Under the pieces are notes generated by a model. That model saw nothing but the letters and a program-made list of their open reading frames with translations. It was not told where the DNA came from and did no database searches. From a virus, in IMG/VR virus record IMGVR_UViG_3300032224_000619, positions 1 through 21,129 of that record: a stretch of 21,129 bases of DNA; one strand, 5' to 3'. Below, piece by piece: positions 1,215 through 20,839 of this stretch; position 1 is the stretch's first letter; every line of letters starts with the position of its first letter. A program made the translations under genes and the position numbers.

Positions 1215-1342
1215 AGTCCAGTGGCGGAATGGTAGACGCTAATACGATAGAGTAAAAAGATAAGTGAGACTATACCCAAGCGGATAAATATAGTTACCAT
1301 CGGGAAACATTACTCATACAGGTTCGAATCCTGTCTGGACTA
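1215..1342 (+). tRNA. tRNA-like gene with an oversized, non-canonical interior
   Basis: The two ends are clearly tRNA. A 7-bp acceptor pairs AGTCCAG (1215-1221) with CTGGACT (1335-1341), discriminator A at 1342. The D arm is GCG-GAATGGTAGA-CGC (1224-1239), as in Leu-type tRNAs. The T arm is ACAGG-TTCGAAT-CCTGT (1318-1334). Between D and T arms lie 78 bases, far more than a normal anticodon plus variable arm, and no 5-bp/7-nt anticodon arm could be found. The interior can pair GAGTAA (1250-1255) with TTACTC (1310-1315) and ACTATA (1269-1274) with TATAGT (1289-1294). CCA is not encoded (ACT follows). It could be an intron-bearing tRNA, a fusion of two tRNA remnants, or a tRNA mimic. Confidence 0.55.
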
Positions 1343-3402: not shown

Positions 3403-5412
3403 ATGATTTATTTAGTTACTAACCAGCAGAGTATGTTTACCTCTGCTGGTTACTCTTTGGCAACCGTCGAAGACTCAATAAAATACCTCAAAACACTAGA
3501 CATTATCGGCTTTGATACCGAGACTATGGGCTTAGACCCTTACACTAAACCTTTGCTATCTATGCAGCTAGGTGACGAACAAAAGCAGTATGTAGTAGAC
3601 TGCACGACTGTAGATCCCAAAGTTTACAAAGATTTGCTTGAAAGCAAGGTTTTGATCATGCACAATGCAAAGTTTGACTTGCGGTATCTATTTCACCATG
3701 GAATCGTGCCTACTAAAATCTTTGATACTTTTCTTATCGAGAGAATCCTGACTACTGGCATAGATACTGTTAGAAGATCGCTTGATGCAGTGGTGTATAG
3801 ATATTGCAAAATAGAACTTGATAAAACTGTGCGTGGTCATATTCATCGTGAAGGCTTGTCTACAAGAGTTATTAAATATGCAGCTGACGACGTTAAGTAT
3901 CTTCACCAAGTGATGAGAAAACAGCAGGTAGCATTGCAAGAGAATAACTTAACACGTGCTGCTAGTCTTGACAACGAGTTTGTTGTAGTACTAGCATACA
4001 TTGAGTATTGTGGCTTCTATATGAATCCACAAGACTGGGCTAAGAAATGCGAAGAAGACAAAAAAGATCTTGAAACTGTTAAGAAAAAGCTAGATGATTT
4101 TATTCTGGCTAATCCTGAGCAATATGCTGATTATATAGACAATCAGCTAGATTTATTTGCTCCAGGTGTGTCTACTAAAATTAATTGGTCATCTTCTAAA
4201 CAAGTAATAAGCTTTATGCAGTCTCTAGGCGTTGAAACACTTACTAAAGACAAAGAGACAGGCTTGTTTAAACACTCTGTTGACAAGAAAGTCTTGGGTC
4301 CACAGAAGAAGAAACACCCTATTATTCCTACGTACATTGAGTACACTGAGCATCAAAAAGTTGTAAGTACTTACGGCGACAACTGGTTTAGTTATATAAA
4401 CCCTGTCACCAAGAGAATACACAGCAATTTCACTCAGATTATGAATACAGGCAGGTTATCTAGTGGTCAAAAAGCTAACAAAAAGACTGGCATACCACAG
4501 GCACCTAATATGCAAAACATACCTAGTGATTCTAGAACTCGTAGTTGCTTCCAATCTCAAGATGGTAATGTACTAATAGTAAGTGACTATAGTGGCCAGG
4601 AGCAGATTGTACTTGCCAATAAAAGCTTGGACAATGACTTGTTGTATTTCTATTCACAGGGTCTTGGTGATATGCATAGTTTCGTAGCATCAAAGATCTT
4701 TCCTGAGTTATCAGGATTGTCGTTAGATGAAATTAAAAACAATCACAAAGACAAAAGACAAATTGCTAAAGGTGCAGGCTTTGCTATTAATTACGGCGGC
4801 ACAGGGATTACTATATCTCAAAACTTAAACATCTCTATCGAAGAAGGCGAGAAAGTATATCAAGAATACTTTAAAGCATTTCCTGGCTTAGCTAACTATT
4901 TTAAGCAAGAGAAGCAACGAGCATTGAGTTTGGGCTACATAGAATTTAATCCTATTAGTCGTCGTAAATGTTTTATTCCTTTTTGGGAAGATTATAAAAG
5001 ACTGCACGATGAAATCTATAAGACTACAGGATTCTGGGATGATTACAAGTATCACAAACAAGAAGAAACTGAAGAATTTCGACAGTTCTACAAACCTAAA
5101 GTGCGTGAGTATTTTATGAAGAAAGGCGATATTGAACGCATGTCTCTAAATTACCCGATCCAAGGATCGAGTGCTGACATTACTAAACTTGCAGGTATTT
5201 ATTTCTTTAGGTATCTAATAGAAAAAGGTTTAGTATTCAAAGTCCTTATGCCTAATGTAGTACATGACGAGTGGATTGTAGAATCTCCAAAAGAACTTGC
5301 AGAAGAAATGAAAAACAAACTACAAGAATGCATGGAAGATGCAGGTAAAGTATTTTGTAAAGTTGTTAAACTAAAAGCTGACCCTGTTGTGACTTCGCAC
5401 TGGCAGCATTAA
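3403..5412 (+). CDS. polA-like: DNA polymerase, family A, with 3'-5' exonuclease
   Basis: 669 residues, the replicative polymerase. The N-terminal DnaQ-fold proofreading domain shows ExoI D38/E40 (GFDTETMGL), ExoII N88/D92 (HNAKFDL) and ExoIII Y159-D163 (YAADDVKYL). The polymerase domain shows motif A at D395 (SDYSGQEQI), motif B R452-K456-F460-YG464-465 (RQIAKGAGFAINYGG) and motif C H621-D622-E623 (VVHDEW); the conserved NYPIQGSSAD is at about 583-592. There is no 5'-3' exonuclease domain, as in T7-type phage polymerases. All catalytic residues are present. It opens the replication operon behind the candidate promoter. Confidence 0.97.
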   Translation: MIYLVTNQQSMFTSAGYSLATVEDSIKYLKTLDIIGFDTETMGLDPYTKPLLSMQLGDEQKQYVVDCTTVDPKVYKDLLESKVLIMHNAKFDLRYLFHHGIVPTKIFDTFLIERILTTGIDTVRRSLDAVVYRYCKIELDKTVRGHIHREGLSTRVIKYAADDVKYLHQVMRKQQVALQENNLTRAASLDNEFVVVLAYIEYCGFYMNPQDWAKKCEEDKKDLETVKKKLDDFILANPEQYADYIDNQLDLFAPGVSTKINWSSSKQVISFMQSLGVETLTKDKETGLFKHSVDKKVLGPQKKKHPIIPTYIEYTEHQKVVSTYGDNWFSYINPVTKRIHSNFTQIMNTGRLSSGQKANKKTGIPQAPNMQNIPSDSRTRSCFQSQDGNVLIVSDYSGQEQIVLANKSLDNDLLYFYSQGLGDMHSFVASKIFPELSGLSLDEIKNNHKDKRQIAKGAGFAINYGGTGITISQNLNISIEEGEKVYQEYFKAFPGLANYFKQEKQRALSLGYIEFNPISRRKCFIPFWEDYKRLHDEIYKTTGFWDDYKYHKQEETEEFRQFYKPKVREYFMKKGDIERMSLNYPIQGSSADITKLAGIYFFRYLIEKGLVFKVLMPNVVHDEWIVESPKELAEEMKNKLQECMEDAGKVFCKVVKLKADPVVTSHWQH

Positions 5413-9369: not shown

Positions 9370-9861
9370 ATGGAAACATGGAAACAAATTCCTTCTTATG
9401 AAGGACTTTATGCTATTAGTGATTGTGGAAATGTCAAGTCTATTAGGAAAAACAGATGCCTAAAACCTACTGTAGATGCTAAAGGATATCTTTATGTTTC
9501 TTTATGTAAATCAGGCAAAGAAATAAAATATAAAATCCATAGGCTTGTAGCACTATCATTTATTGAAAATCCTAATAATTATGATCAAGTGGATCATATT
9601 AATAGGATAAAAGATGACAATAGTATTAAAAATCTTAGATGGGCAAATAATAGTATAAATGCTCATAATACTATGTCTAGAAAAAATAGTACTTCCAAGT
9701 TTAAAGGAGTTTCTTTAGATTCTTCTTCAAGATTAAAAAAGTGGAAAGCAGTTATTAATATTAATAAAAAAGCTTTTCATCTTGGTAGATTTTTAACAGA
9801 AGAAGAAGCACATGAAGCACGTTGTAAATTTGAAAAAGAGTATAGTAGTTTACACAACTAA
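9370..9861 (+). CDS. Free-standing HNH homing endonuclease (NUMOD4-HNH-AP2)
   Basis: 163 residues. The N-terminal NUMOD4 motif is WKQIPSYEGLYAISDCGNVK (4-23). The HNH_3 core is IHRLVALSFIENP then VDHINRIKDDN and NLRWAN, with the metal-site His in DHIN. The C-terminal AP2-like DNA-binding segment is SKFKGVSLD then WKAVININ and FHLGRF. It is more AT-rich, with many AAA/AAT codons, than neighbouring genes, consistent with a mobile origin. It lies between two intact genes of the replication block, and no group I core surrounds it, so it is free-standing. It would nick or cut cognate DNA to spread itself into related phages. Confidence 0.9.
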   Translation: METWKQIPSYEGLYAISDCGNVKSIRKNRCLKPTVDAKGYLYVSLCKSGKEIKYKIHRLVALSFIENPNNYDQVDHINRIKDDNSIKNLRWANNSINAHNTMSRKNSTSKFKGVSLDSSSRLKKWKAVININKKAFHLGRFLTEEEAHEARCKFEKEYSSLHN

Positions 9862-12871: not shown

Positions 12872-15158
12872 ATGACTAAAGCAGAATCGCTTAGTAAAGT
12901 TAGTAAGGAATTGATGTTGAAGGAGCCGTTTTACGGCTTTTTCCTTTTAATGCTCAATAAAGTATGGGACGCTAAGCGTGTACCTACAGCATGTGTGAGC
13001 AAAAACAACATTAATTATCAGCTTACTATTAATCCTGAGTTTTGGGAAAGTCTTATAGACAAACACCAAATGGGATTACTCAAACACGAGCTCAAGAGGG
13101 CTCCTTATACAGTAATGTATATGTAAAATGTCTTAAATTGACGGGAACTGCCTTAGAGCTTTATCTACCAAGTACACACAGTGATGTAGTGTATGGCCAG
13201 AATAATTACCTGGGTAAGGTAAAAAAGATAAAGATTGGCAAATCCGCAGCCAAATTTCTTATTATATGATTTATTTTTGGTATATTGTAGTCTAAATACT
13301 TACATATATGAAAACAAAAATAGAACAAGAAGTAATTGATTACTATATTATTGATAAACTATCGGGACAAAAAATTGCAAGCATATTAAAAATAAATCCT
13401 AAAACAGTGTTTGCTATTTTAAAAAGAAATAATATAAAATCAAGAACTTTGTCTGAAGCAGCAATGAAGTATACTTGCCAAGATGATTTTTTTAATGTTA
13501 TAGATACAGAGAAAAAAGCATATTGGTTAGGAGTATTATTTGCTGACGGTAATATTACGAAAAAAGCAAGTAAATCTGGACAAATTATTTTTTCATCAAA
13601 AGATAAAGAATGGGTAAAACTATTTTTATTAGATATTGGATCAAATAATTCTCCAAATTGTGAATATCAAAAACTATATAAAAAGTATATATGGAAAGCT
13701 CAAATAACTTCAGCTAAAATGTATGACGATTTAAATAATTTAGGATGTACACCTGCTAAAACCAAAACAATTAGAATACCTGCAATAAAAAATAAGCTAG
13801 TCCATCATTTTATAAGAGGTTATTTTGACGGTGATGGTACAGTAGGTCTTTATAAAAACCTAAAAAATAATGATTGGAAAATCTTAAAATCAGGTTTTTG
13901 TTCTGGTTCACAACAATTTATTAGCGATTTATTAGAAATAATACCAGTAAAAAATAAAAAAATTAAACAAGTTAAAGAATGTTATATTACACAGCACTCT
14001 TTAAATGATACTCTTAATCTATTTAAATACATGTATAAAGATTGCACAGTATGTTTAGAAAGAAAAAGAGAAATTTTTATTAATTATTTAGACACATATA
14101 AACCAAGAAAGAGGTTCAACGACTACAATAGACCATCCTAATAAGGATGAAGGTATAGTCTGATCTCATGTGAAAGCATGAGTTAACATAAATGCTTGCA
14201 TATTGCATTTAACCATCTTACTAGTACGTTTCCGTTTAGTGATAAGAAGCTGGCTAATATTGCATTTGACTTAGAGATTAATCAATTTATTGACCCAGAA
14301 TGGCTCCCTGAAGGAGGTTTAACACTAGATACTTATCCAGAGTTAAACTTAGAGGCTAAACAGGGCAGTAGATATTATTATTCTAAGTTGCTTGCAGCAA
14401 AACAGGATAAAGATAAAAAAGGCACATCAGGTTGTCCCAATTTTGACAAACATTGTGACCAAATGGATAATGGAGAAGATCCTGCAAACCATGATACTTG
14501 GGAAGAATTTGAAGATTTACCAGAAGCAGAGAGAAAGCTTATTGAAAAGCAGGTACAACGTGTGCTTAGCGAGGTAAAAGAGCAAACAGAAAAGCGTCAG
14601 GGAAATGTTCCTGGTGAGATGGTAGGCAAGATTCTTATCGAAGTAATTGAGAAAGCTAAGTTTAATTGGCGTGAGTATGTACGTAGATTTGCTGGCAACA
14701 GTACTAAAATTTATACTAAGAAAGTACGACGCAAAGAGAACAGAAGGTTTTCCGATAATCCTGGACTAAAGATCAAAATGCGTCAACACATGTTGTTGGC
14801 TATTGATACATCAGGATCCGTAAGTGACGCAGAGCTAAAAGAATTTATGAATGAAATATTTCATATTTACAAACAAGGCGTAGATGTTACTATCGTACAA
14901 TGTGATACGGAAATTAAAAGCATTAGATCTTATAAAGGTGCTTTAGATTTAGAAGTAGGTGGAAGAGGAGGAACAAGTTTTGATCCTGTATTAGAATACT
15001 TCAATGAGAATCTCAAGAAATATACTAGTCTAGTATATTTTACCGACGGCGAATGTGATACCGACATAAAGCCGCGTGGACCCATTTTATGGGTGTTATC
15101 AGAAAGGTCTTATAATAACGAAAACCTTCCTGGAAAAGTAATCAAGTTAGAACTTTAA
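12872..15158 (+). CDS. Metallopeptidase-VWA protein split by a group I intron (join 12872-13092, 14195-15158)
   Basis: Exon 1 is 221 nt, exon 2 is 964 nt; joined they encode 394 residues. Splicing after U13092 and G14194 restores HELLHIAFNHL, an HExxHxxxxH metal site (H72, E73, H76, H81), which neither exon holds alone. KLANIAFDLEIN follows, as in DUF2201-type putative metallopeptidase domains. The C-terminal VWA-like domain carries the MIDAS motif DTSGS (278-282). An acidic linker lies between. The partner is the MoxR-type AAA+ ATPase starting 10 bases downstream; MoxR/VWA pairs act as chaperones or insert metals (CobS/CobT-like). Without splicing, exon 1 ends in a stop at 13124-13126, giving an 84-aa product. 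Confidence 0.85.
13093..14194 (+). other. Group I self-splicing intron, 1102 nt
   Basis: P1: 5' exon GAGCT (13088-13092) pairs with GGCTC (13099-13103), with the required U-G pair at the splice site. P10: intron CAAG (13093-13096) pairs with 3' exon CTTG (14195-14198). The intron ends in G (14194). The core includes GACGGGAACTGCC near 13139-13152, AATCCGCAGCCAA near 13242-13254, P7 CGACTA (14120-14125) with TATAGTC (14154-14160), P8 CATCC/GGATG (14134-14149) and P9 CTCATG/CATGAG (14165-14182). It carries the LAGLIDADG gene. Insertion is exactly in codons for a metal-binding HExxH motif, the sort of conserved site such introns target. Confidence 0.93.
13308..14141 (+). CDS. Intron-encoded LAGLIDADG homing endonuclease, 277 aa
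   Basis: The two LAGLIDADG motifs are YWLGVLFADG (72-81, D80) and FIRGYFDGDG (168-177), so it works as a single-chain monomer. The N-terminal ~45 residues form a helix-turn-helix of the YYIIDKLSGQKIASILKINP type that may aid DNA recognition or self-regulation. It cuts intronless alleles of the VWA gene to spread the intron, and may also assist folding as a maturase. The 3' end overlaps the ribozyme core: its last codons contain the 5' strand of P7 and half of P8. AT-rich codon use differs from the host gene. TTATTTTTGGTATATTG at 13271-13287 could be its own promoter, weakly. Confidence 0.92.
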   Translation: MKTKIEQEVIDYYIIDKLSGQKIASILKINPKTVFAILKRNNIKSRTLSEAAMKYTCQDDFFNVIDTEKKAYWLGVLFADGNITKKASKSGQIIFSSKDKEWVKLFLLDIGSNNSPNCEYQKLYKKYIWKAQITSAKMYDDLNNLGCTPAKTKTIRIPAIKNKLVHHFIRGYFDGDGTVGLYKNLKNNDWKILKSGFCSGSQQFISDLLEIIPVKNKKIKQVKECYITQHSLNDTLNLFKYMYKDCTVCLERKREIFINYLDTYKPRKRFNDYNRPS

Positions 15159-15168
15159 AAATTAACAC

Positions 15169-16338
15169 ATGAATCAAGTAAAATTAAACGTTGAAGAGTT
15201 AAAAAGCTTTGTTAAGCACATGATTGTAAACAATCAAACTATCCAAGCACAAGGTAAAGTACCTGTTGCGGTCAACATCGAAGGCGATGCGGGCCTTGGC
15301 AAGACTTCTGCTATCATGCAGTTAGGCCAAGAATTAGGTAAGCAAGTAGTAAAACTAAACTTAGCACAGCTAGAAGAGCTAGGTGACTTAGTTGGTTTTC
15401 CTGTTAAAGAATATCAAGTAAAGAATGCAGAAGGTAAAACTTTATGGATTACTGAGCAAGAGATTGAAATAGCTAACCAAAAAGGCTACCGTGTTGTAGA
15501 TAAGCGCATGTCTCATGCTGCTCCTGAATGGATTCAAGGTAAAGGTGAGGGTGGTATCTTAATTCTAGATGACTACACTCGTGCTGATCAGCGTTTTACC
15601 CAAGCAACTATGGAATTACTAGACCGCCAAGAGTATGTGTCTTGGAAGCTTCCTAAAGATTGGCACATTGTCCTAACTACAAATCCAGACAACGGTGACT
15701 ATAATGTTACTAGTCTTGATGTAGCGCAAAAGACTCGTTTCATTTCTGTAGAGCTTAAATTTGATGTAGATGTGTGGGCTAAGTGGGCAGAGACTGCAGG
15801 TATTGACGGTCGTTGTATTAACTTCTTGTTGATGCACCCTGAAAGTATTACGCAAAGAATTAATCCTCGTTCTGTGACTACATTCTTTAATGCTATTACA
15901 TCTATTGAAGACTTTGATAGCAACTTGCCTTTGATCCAAATGATCGGTGAGGGCTCAGTAGGACCAGAGTTTGCTGGTTTGTTTACTATGTTTATCAATA
16001 ACAAGTTAGACAGGATTATTAGTCCTAAAGATATCTTAGAAAAAGATACTCAGTATGTGTTGAATACTCTTACCAATGTTATCGGAAAAGACGATGAATA
16101 TCGTGCTGATATTGCCAGTGTATTAGCCACTCGTATAGTAAACTATTCATTGAACTTCAGCACTAAGCATTCTGTACCACAAGATATGGTAGACAGATTG
16201 GTAGTACTAAGCACGGAATCTAGTGTGTTTACTGAAGACTTGAAGTATCGATTAGTTAAAGATATTATTAACGGCAACAAAGTAAAGTTTGCTAAATTAA
16301 TTATGAACCAAGAAGTCATGAAAATGGCTATAAACTAA
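15169..16338 (+). CDS. MoxR/CobS-type AAA+ ATPase, 389 aa
   Basis: Walker A GDAGLGKT (39-46), Walker B ILILDDYTRAD (130-140, D134-D135), sensor 1 TTNPD (170-174), and R190 in AQKTRF as probable arginine finger. The inserts and the phrase 'DDYTRADQRFTQATMELLDRQ' fit the MoxR/CobS clade. It would form a ring that remodels a protein target recognised by the VWA partner encoded just upstream. The first 35 residues form a helical lead. Gene spacing (10 bases before, 5 after) ties it to the VWA gene and the unknown 403-residue gene. Confidence 0.9.
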   Translation: MNQVKLNVEELKSFVKHMIVNNQTIQAQGKVPVAVNIEGDAGLGKTSAIMQLGQELGKQVVKLNLAQLEELGDLVGFPVKEYQVKNAEGKTLWITEQEIEIANQKGYRVVDKRMSHAAPEWIQGKGEGGILILDDYTRADQRFTQATMELLDRQEYVSWKLPKDWHIVLTTNPDNGDYNVTSLDVAQKTRFISVELKFDVDVWAKWAETAGIDGRCINFLLMHPESITQRINPRSVTTFFNAITSIEDFDSNLPLIQMIGEGSVGPEFAGLFTMFINNKLDRIISPKDILEKDTQYVLNTLTNVIGKDDEYRADIASVLATRIVNYSLNFSTKHSVPQDMVDRLVVLSTESSVFTEDLKYRLVKDIINGNKVKFAKLIMNQEVMKMAIN

Positions 16339-20308: not shown

Positions 20309-20839
20309 ATGAAAAAAATAATAAAATATCCAAATTATTATGTGACTAAAGAAGGCAAAGTATTTAGTTCCAAATCTAATAAATTCTTAAGACCATCATT
20401 TGATAAACAGGGCTACGCAAGGGTTGGAGTCTATATTGGTAATTATAAAACAAAGACAATAAAAATACATAGACTTATTGCGGAAACATTTATTGATAAT
20501 CCATTTAACAAAAAAGATGTAAATCATATTAATGGAATAAAAAGTGATAATAGAGTTGAGAATCTTGAATGGTGTACAAGAAGTGAAAATATAAAACACG
20601 CTTTTAGAACTGGATTGAGTAAAATTTCAGATAATCAAAAAAATCGATTTATTCAAATGACAAAAGCACAAATAGGTAGCAAAAATCCATCAGCAAGAAA
20701 AATAATTAACACATTAACAGGGGAGGTATTTAATACAATAAAAGAAGTACTTCCTTTAGTTAATTTAAAAAGAACCACTTTTCAAGCTATGTTAAATAAT
20801 CAAAATCCTAACAAAACAAATTTTAAATATTATGATTAG
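20309..20839 (+). CDS. Free-standing HNH homing endonuclease (NUMOD4-HNH-NUMOD1)
   Basis: 176 residues. The N-terminus has a NUMOD4-like YPNYYVTKEGKVFSSKSN segment. The HNH_3 core is IHRLIAETFIDNP, VNHINGIKSDN and NLEWCT. The C-terminal NUMOD1-like DNA-binding helix is IINTLTGEVF then LVNLKRTTFQAMLN. Very AT-rich codon use, unlike its neighbours. TATATTTGC (20297-20305) just before the ATG matches the Bacteroidota -7 element TAnnTTTG, which would give an almost leaderless mRNA, but no -33 partner is seen. Its stop overlaps the next gene's start by 8 bases. It differs from the 9370 gene in its C-terminal domain, so the two arrived separately. Confidence 0.9.
   Translation: MKKIIKYPNYYVTKEGKVFSSKSNKFLRPSFDKQGYARVGVYIGNYKTKTIKIHRLIAETFIDNPFNKKDVNHINGIKSDNRVENLEWCTRSENIKHAFRTGLSKISDNQKNRFIQMTKAQIGSKNPSARKIINTLTGEVFNTIKEVLPLVNLKRTTFQAMLNNQNPNKTNFKYYD

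Follow-up and report, generated by a model that had tools for sequence, protein, structure and literature searches.

A very probably mobile group I intron in the HExxH codons of a putative phage metallopeptidase-VWA gene, and further insertions in conserved codons of this gene and its neighbour

Phage genes can hold several introns, as does Twort orf142, which has three. In Bastillevirinae and T4-like phages, the accessible text of two reports (PMC11878797, PMC2988022) describes group I introns that lie in conserved host genes, have a core split by the open reading frame (ORF) of a homing endonuclease, occur up to two or three times in a single gene, and in some cases lack an ORF. Many phage group I introns are inserted at functionally critical sequences, according to the part of PMC2988022 available to us. 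The crAss-like phages have several group I introns per genome and per gene, with up to 14 per genome in some of them, and the accessible part of that report names no VWA host gene (PMC7886860). Here, we analyse a DNA stretch of 21,129 bases, hereafter the window, which is the record of an uncultured virus (IMG/VR record IMGVR_UViG_3300032224_000619). In its plus strand, a gene encoding a putative metallopeptidase-VWA protein (positions 12872-15158) is interrupted by an element of 1102 nucleotides (nt; 13093-14194), which is very probably a mobile group I intron.

This intron resembles the systems above in its general organisation and differs from them in its host gene. The host genes named in the accessible part of PMC11878797 encode DNA polymerase, the terminase large subunit, thymidylate synthase and ribonucleotide reductase, whereas here they encode the metallopeptidase-VWA protein and, in relatives, a neighbouring ATPase. 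In the table of that report, as far as available, just one endonuclease is of the LAGLIDADG type, to which the window's belongs. No intron in a phage VWA or MoxR gene is described in the literature that we searched, which included the accessible parts of PMC1524935 and PMC7824862 and left most subscription journals outside reach. In Staphylococcus phage Romulus, the LAGLIDADG endonuclease of the recA-associated intron is 27.9% identical to the window's; in Brevibacillus phage Jenst, the figure is 28.7% for that of the split DNA polymerase gene. DNA similar to the window's 5' core also occurs in several other Staphylococcus phages, at about 71-78% across 132-139 bases of the query. Romulus and Jenst differ from the window in host gene and splice site, and their endonucleases are too distant to be placed in our tree.

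The boundaries of the intron could be read to the base. Exon 1 (12872-13092) encodes residues 1-73 and two bases of the Leu74 codon, and matches the DUF2201 metallopeptidase profile PF13203 (E 3.2e-6) and phrog_1314 (E 6.4e-9). Exon 2 (14195-15158) provides the final base of Leu74, then L75, H76, the remaining metallopeptidase domain, the VWA domain and the stop (PF09967, E 5.6e-18; PF13203, E 4e-5). Joined without the 1102 nt, they form an ORF of 394 residues with the motif HELLHIAFNH (H72-E-L-L-H76), just as a model had noted earlier from the sequence alone (hereafter the earlier note). To compare this protein with uninterrupted homologues, we kept 80 VWA loci out of 166 relatives found, the best by likeness and not a random sample. 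All 80 align with the joined protein in one piece. In six intronless relatives (L002-L007), whose proteins are 88-96% identical to the window's, the empty site reads CACGAGCTCTTGCAT or a synonymous form, without interruption. Conversely, all 24 loci found via the endonuclease have an exon edge at the same HEL^LH position, hereafter site A, and both exons are visible in 22 of them. The 24 introns that we measured, window included, are 1102-1115 nt long. An intein, which would be inserted in frame, is ruled out because 1102 is not a multiple of three and the frame stops after 10 intron codons. In one contig (L088, positions 4898-4930), comparison with L089 reveals one base gained and one lost in exon 2 just past the site-A intron, which turns HELLH into a sequence without the second histidine. 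This is perhaps an assembly error.

The unspliced frame of the window does yield an ORF of 84 residues. The earlier note had suggested on this basis that splicing could be a switch. In a regulatory version of this idea, a functional truncated protein would come from the unspliced message, and the full enzyme would appear upon splicing. Yet, such a product would lack the second histidine of HExxH and the VWA domain, and its read-through tail is not conserved. Among the 22 distinct site-A introns, 12 stop one codon past HEL ("HELN*") and the other 10 vary. The 10-residue tail of the window recurs in no other distinct intron of this site, that of L145 being related and of equal length. Moreover, the intron is absent from all 80 relatives kept. 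Hence, we regard the switch as very unlikely.

The element is predicted to fold as a group I ribozyme. We placed P1 to P10 by hand on the window and counted the pairs in 36 distinct introns from site A and from two further sites of the same gene (B and C, described below). These were taken from 60 introns with both halves in view, after dropping identical ones and the intron of L120. Pairing was compared with 300 shuffles, without correction for relatedness among the introns. Standard pairs were found in 2470 of 2558 cells. For P2, P3, P5a-d, P8 and P9, none of the 300 shuffles was as good and double changes were present. P2 (13106-13121), capped by a GUAA loop, is paired in 216 of 216 cells (shuffled mean 199.7), with double changes in five of its six pairs. 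P3 (13130-13133 with 14130-14133) is paired in 144 of 144 cells (shuffled mean 104.6), with double changes in all four pairs. The region 13138-13260 contains P4 (13138-13144 with 13244-13249), P5 with the covarying P5a-P5d (13150-13239) and the 5' strands of P6 and P6a (13250-13260). The 3' half of the core (14105-14194) contains the 3' strands of P6a and P6 (14105-14114), P7 (14121-14125 with 14156-14160), the 3' strand of P3, P8 (14134-14149; 180 of 180 cells, shuffled mean 147.1) and P9 (14165-14182; 216 of 216 cells, shuffled mean 145.8), the last two with double changes. P4, P6, P6a and the invariant P7 are present, and are uninformative on covariation because they are nearly or fully invariant.

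The helices at the splice sites were best studied within site A, where 17 introns passed the positional filter of the pair count (of the full set of 22 distinct ones). P1, formed by GAGCU at the end of exon 1 (13088-13092) and the guide GGCUC (13099-13103), is paired in 85 of 85 cells. The U13092.G13099 pair at the 5' splice site and the terminal G14194, both pointed out in the earlier note, are kept in relatives. P10 is paired in 43 of 45 cells. Of the four pairs proposed for it (CAAG/CUUG), the first three (CAA/UUG) are supported and the fourth, G13096-C14195, is not conserved. The outer pair, which involves the 5'-terminal base of the intron and base four of exon 2, is C-G in 14 of the 22 distinct introns, U-A in six, U-G in one and the non-pairing C-A in one (Fisher p 0.0006 for the association, relatedness not removed).

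The intron contains an ORF of 277 residues (13308-14141, plus strand) in the loop of P6, whose 3' end overlaps P6, P7, P3 and P8. It matches PF14528 (31.3 bits, cutoff 22.5) and phrog_4645 (E 2e-51), and by eye we found two LAGLIDADG-like motifs in its translation, WLGVLFADGN and FIRGYFDGDGTV. The ratio of non-synonymous to synonymous substitution rates (dN/dS) between the window's endonuclease gene and those of 20 site-A relatives is 0.15-0.33, and the medians are 0.27, 0.23 and 0.15 at sites A, B and C, respectively, which shows a gene under purifying selection. In 179 of 190 pairs at site A, and in all 21 at site B and all 21 at site C, the endonucleases resemble each other more closely than the surrounding exons do (pairs share members, and L106, which has no endonuclease gene, was excluded). 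In the most extreme pair, the endonucleases are 96% identical and the exons 48%. The clades of the endonuclease tree follow the insertion site, with support of 97/98 for B, 100/99 for C and 99/99 for A with L106 set aside. Given the long branches of this tree, the endonucleases of the three sites may or may not form a group apart from other phage endonucleases. The spread of the element, the purifying selection and the higher likeness of endonucleases than of exons are signs expected under homing. They lend indirect support to an endonuclease that would cut the empty target and drive homing. A candidate promoter ahead of the endonuclease gene, TANNTTTG, which we take to be of the Bacteroidota type, was dropped, as the window contains 23 matches to this pattern where 28.85 are expected.

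Several observations weigh against a mobile group I intron. When the three sites are aligned together, P1 is paired in 140 of 180 cells and P10 in 59 of 95, with 85 of 300 shuffles as good for the latter; the drop arises because the guides differ between sites. For 11 of the 190 pairs at site A, exon likeness equals or exceeds that of the endonucleases. The search with the Rfam group I model RF00028 that the earlier note had called for found both halves of the window's core, the 3' half at 14027-14182 with 34.6 bits (E 1.1e-6) and the 5' half at 13087-13306 with 19.7 bits (E 0.033), each below the gathering score of 50. A default scan of the window, which applies this threshold, came back empty, because the ORF splits the core. 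Five other intron-bearing contigs (L084, L091, L082, L088 and L094) gave no group I match in an Rfam scan at E 0.05, with a chance snoRNA match as the sole output. Such negative scans tell little when the core is split by an ORF. Introns without an ORF were also found at site A: those of L106, L152, L156 and L163 are 303 nt long and apparently of a single lineage, and that of L280 has 296 nt. Those of L106 and L152 scored 80.4 bits each, above gathering; the short introns of L280 and L275 (the latter from a more distant homologue, see below) remained under it in the same scan.

The low Rfam scores in the window, and the existence of one ORF for exon 1 plus its tail and another for exon 2, would also fit an endonuclease gene that merely broke the VWA gene, leaving remnants or separate proteins without splicing. 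We consider this extremely unlikely given the exact boundaries with U.G pair and terminal G, the covarying ribozyme helices, the constraint on the exons, the recurrence of the same site in 41 introns, and the existence of short introns devoid of an endonuclease gene. As the window is a record of an uncultured virus, one could also think of a chimeric assembly, or of a single accidental event. Site A is filled on 40 further contigs as well, with many different sample numbers, and the probability of either is close to negligible. The empty sites and the covariation thus uphold the group I intron proposed at 13093-14194, which would probably be a self-splicing and self-spreading RNA.

From structure and comparison, we propose that GAGCU, which ends exon 1, is recognised by the ribozyme through pairing with the guide GGCUC. 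An external guanosine would cut after U13092, a second cut would follow after G14194, and the joining of the exons would restore the codons of H72-E-L-L-H76. The LAGLIDADG endonuclease would cut this site in gene copies that lack the intron, and repair would then introduce a copy of the intron. A site within invariant catalytic codons would be a stable target, where imprecise loss of the intron would break the gene. We take the element to be selfish, and to reside within a strongly constrained gene.

The metallopeptidase-VWA gene is interrupted at more than one site. We searched viral contigs with a strict 20-base core motif, and added two contigs from the endonuclease search and the window. 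Loci of one contig were merged by hand from their names, and some contigs are near-identical phages from different samples. Since the presence of the intron, or similarity to the window, decided which contigs were included, no intron frequency can be given. We identified 73 introns in 66 viral contigs, seven of which hold two. Of these introns, 41 (window included) are at site A, 15 at site B (after Asp99) and 16 at site C (between Gly333 and Thr334), and one lies in another gene. Hence, the earlier note's view of the host gene as unusual did not hold: 41 introns share the window's site, 31 occupy two further sites, and relatives have insertions in the ATPase gene. In a comparison of eight distant phage proteins, the three junctions rank 27th, 17th and 23rd in conservation among 386 positions (p 0.0014 relative to three random positions). 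They touch the invariant residues H72, E73, H76, D99, G333 and T334. Residues D278, S280, S282, T334 and D358 of the VWA domain, presumably its metal ion-dependent adhesion site (MIDAS), are also invariant in the eight proteins, so that HExxH is not the sole metal-binding motif, contrary to what had been noted, and site C falls just ahead of the MIDAS threonine. A homologue with 34% identity (L275) has a 299-nt insert between the codons of H72 and E73, and this is a putative intron in view of its core motifs and of the restored frame. As judged from these sequences, the VWA gene is a hotspot of predicted introns in this group of phages.

The intron outside this gene (L120) comes after "VSD", and the protein contains DESGS, GGCT and SDGD, which by eye look like a MIDAS of the VWA type. 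We found no VWA match for this protein in Pfam, PHROGs (searched with a 216-residue piece), the phage search and the PDB sequence search, nor a second copy of the gene that would display the empty site. The endonuclease ORF of this intron (minus strand) has in-frame TGA codons and is open if TGA encodes tryptophan; exon 1 has no TGA. A relaxed core motif matched at least 119 stretches, and among the matches listed we looked at 41 new loci, six of which match VWA (among the six, L257 is from the same contig as L083). One insertion (L264) lies at "CISD^GE", a place like that of L120, in a gene with a DUF2828 match under the cutoff. Ten ORFs beside other cores were scanned and matched a tape-measure protein, NUMOD/HNH domains, gyrase B and, weakly, DUF2828, and five of the ten had no match. 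Since the relaxed motif finds cores elsewhere, we rejected the idea that the lineage is confined to VWA genes. Many of the cores outside VWA genes lack a downstream R motif and may be no introns. The exact core motif had no match in GTDB genomes. In L289, L276 and L267, the relaxed motif recurs two or three times over about 1 kb, so that each of these regions possibly has several introns.

It could be argued that this intron lineage is specialised on the metallopeptidase-VWA protein, moving among metal-binding codons of this and other VWA genes. In that case, site C and the introns of L120 and L264, the latter two placed after the Asp of "SDG" or "SDGE" in genes of VWA-like appearance, would reflect jumps from one MIDAS codon to a non-homologous one, favoured by similar DNA immediately past the junction. 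Exon 2 of L264 indeed resembles the empty site C (median rank 7 of about 1170 positions, 17 genes). On the other hand, the median rank of L120 against site C is 301, the DNA of site A resembles no other site, and the looser motif has cores away from VWA genes. The likeness between sites was high for L264 with site C and for one of two site-C queries with site B, lower in the other comparisons, and absent for site A. We regard this specialisation as rather unlikely.

The VWA gene is adjoined by a gene for a MoxR-type AAA+ ATPase (15169-16338, plus strand; phrog_1297, E 2.3e-32; AAA_5 under the cutoff; phage matches annotated as MoxR-like). In the window it is a single uninterrupted ORF of 389 residues. 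Among the loci compared, 103 distinct copies of this gene are uninterrupted, and there are 16 splits that differ in their flanks, a number that may count one insertion twice because match ends vary. The splits are at residues 43/44 in Walker A (GDAGL^GKT), at 73/74, and at about 139-142 after DDYTRA(D), motifs that we named by eye. One split of 243 nt (L127) may be no intron. In the scanned loci, RF00028 matched above gathering four of eight insertions (L226, L095, one of two in L115, and L152), and gave no match at gathering for those of L190, L106 and L280 and the other one of L115. All five insertion ORFs tested have a GIY-YIG match, one of them under the cutoff. Insertions with GIY-YIG ORFs are present in the ATPase gene of L226, L095, L115 and L190, one of them inside Walker A. 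A different type of endonuclease has thus entered the neighbouring gene.

The host gene was confirmed as conserved: the exon dN/dS between the window and five intronless relatives is 0.09-0.11. This fits the earlier note's suggestion of an important protein, and indicates a gene that is under strong constraint. An AlphaFold2 model of the intronless homologue L002, built on 17 sequences, is weak (mean pLDDT 61, pTM 0.40). Its Foldseek matches are to VWA proteins, and the VWA fold is all that it supports, since it is too weak for distances between the sites to be measured. The profile matches (PF13203, PF09967) and the phrog_1297 neighbour identify a MoxR-VWA pair with an N-terminal metallopeptidase domain, and five of the seven distant phage records that we fetched have an ATPase or MoxR gene at most 300 bases away. 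Such a pair of metallopeptidase-VWA protein and MoxR ATPase has been described in jumbo phages, with a proposed role in virion assembly (PMC7824862, accessible part). The DNA polymerase of the window is closest to that of Leptolyngbya phage Lbo-JY46 (48% identity), followed by those of crAss-like phages (37-42%); the Lbo-JY46 match comes in two pieces that flank a LAGLIDADG ORF.

Other features of the window include a tRNA-like gene of 128 nt (1215-1342, plus strand), which scores 36.3 bits with RF00005 and so exceeds gathering. Its acceptor and T arms are good, and about 50 extra bases lie in the middle. It is absent from the ARAGORN and default Rfam scan listings, and may be a tRNA that carries an insert. 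Apparently free-standing homing endonucleases are encoded by two HNH ORFs that match NUMOD4 (9370-9861 and 20309-20839, plus strand; the NUMOD4 match of the second under the cutoff). The family of the metallopeptidase-VWA protein is labelled "HNH endonuclease" in phrog_1314 and in many phage records, which is probably a propagated misannotation. This label, and the blindness of a default Rfam scan to the window's intron, call for caution in annotation.

The kind of element described here, and mobile introns in catalytic codons, were known; the host genes, and a gene pair as a multi-site target, are new to us. The metallopeptidase-VWA gene and the neighbouring ATPase gene join the phage genes favoured by mobile introns. 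Site A allows a natural comparison of empty sites, introns without an ORF and full introns. The point of interest is the number of occupied sites in the conserved codons of one gene pair. The insertions are in or beside the most conserved codons of the VWA gene (HExxH, Asp99 and the MIDAS threonine), and in Walker A and further places of the ATPase gene. Insertions at such codons suggest that the VWA-ATPase pair matters to these phages.
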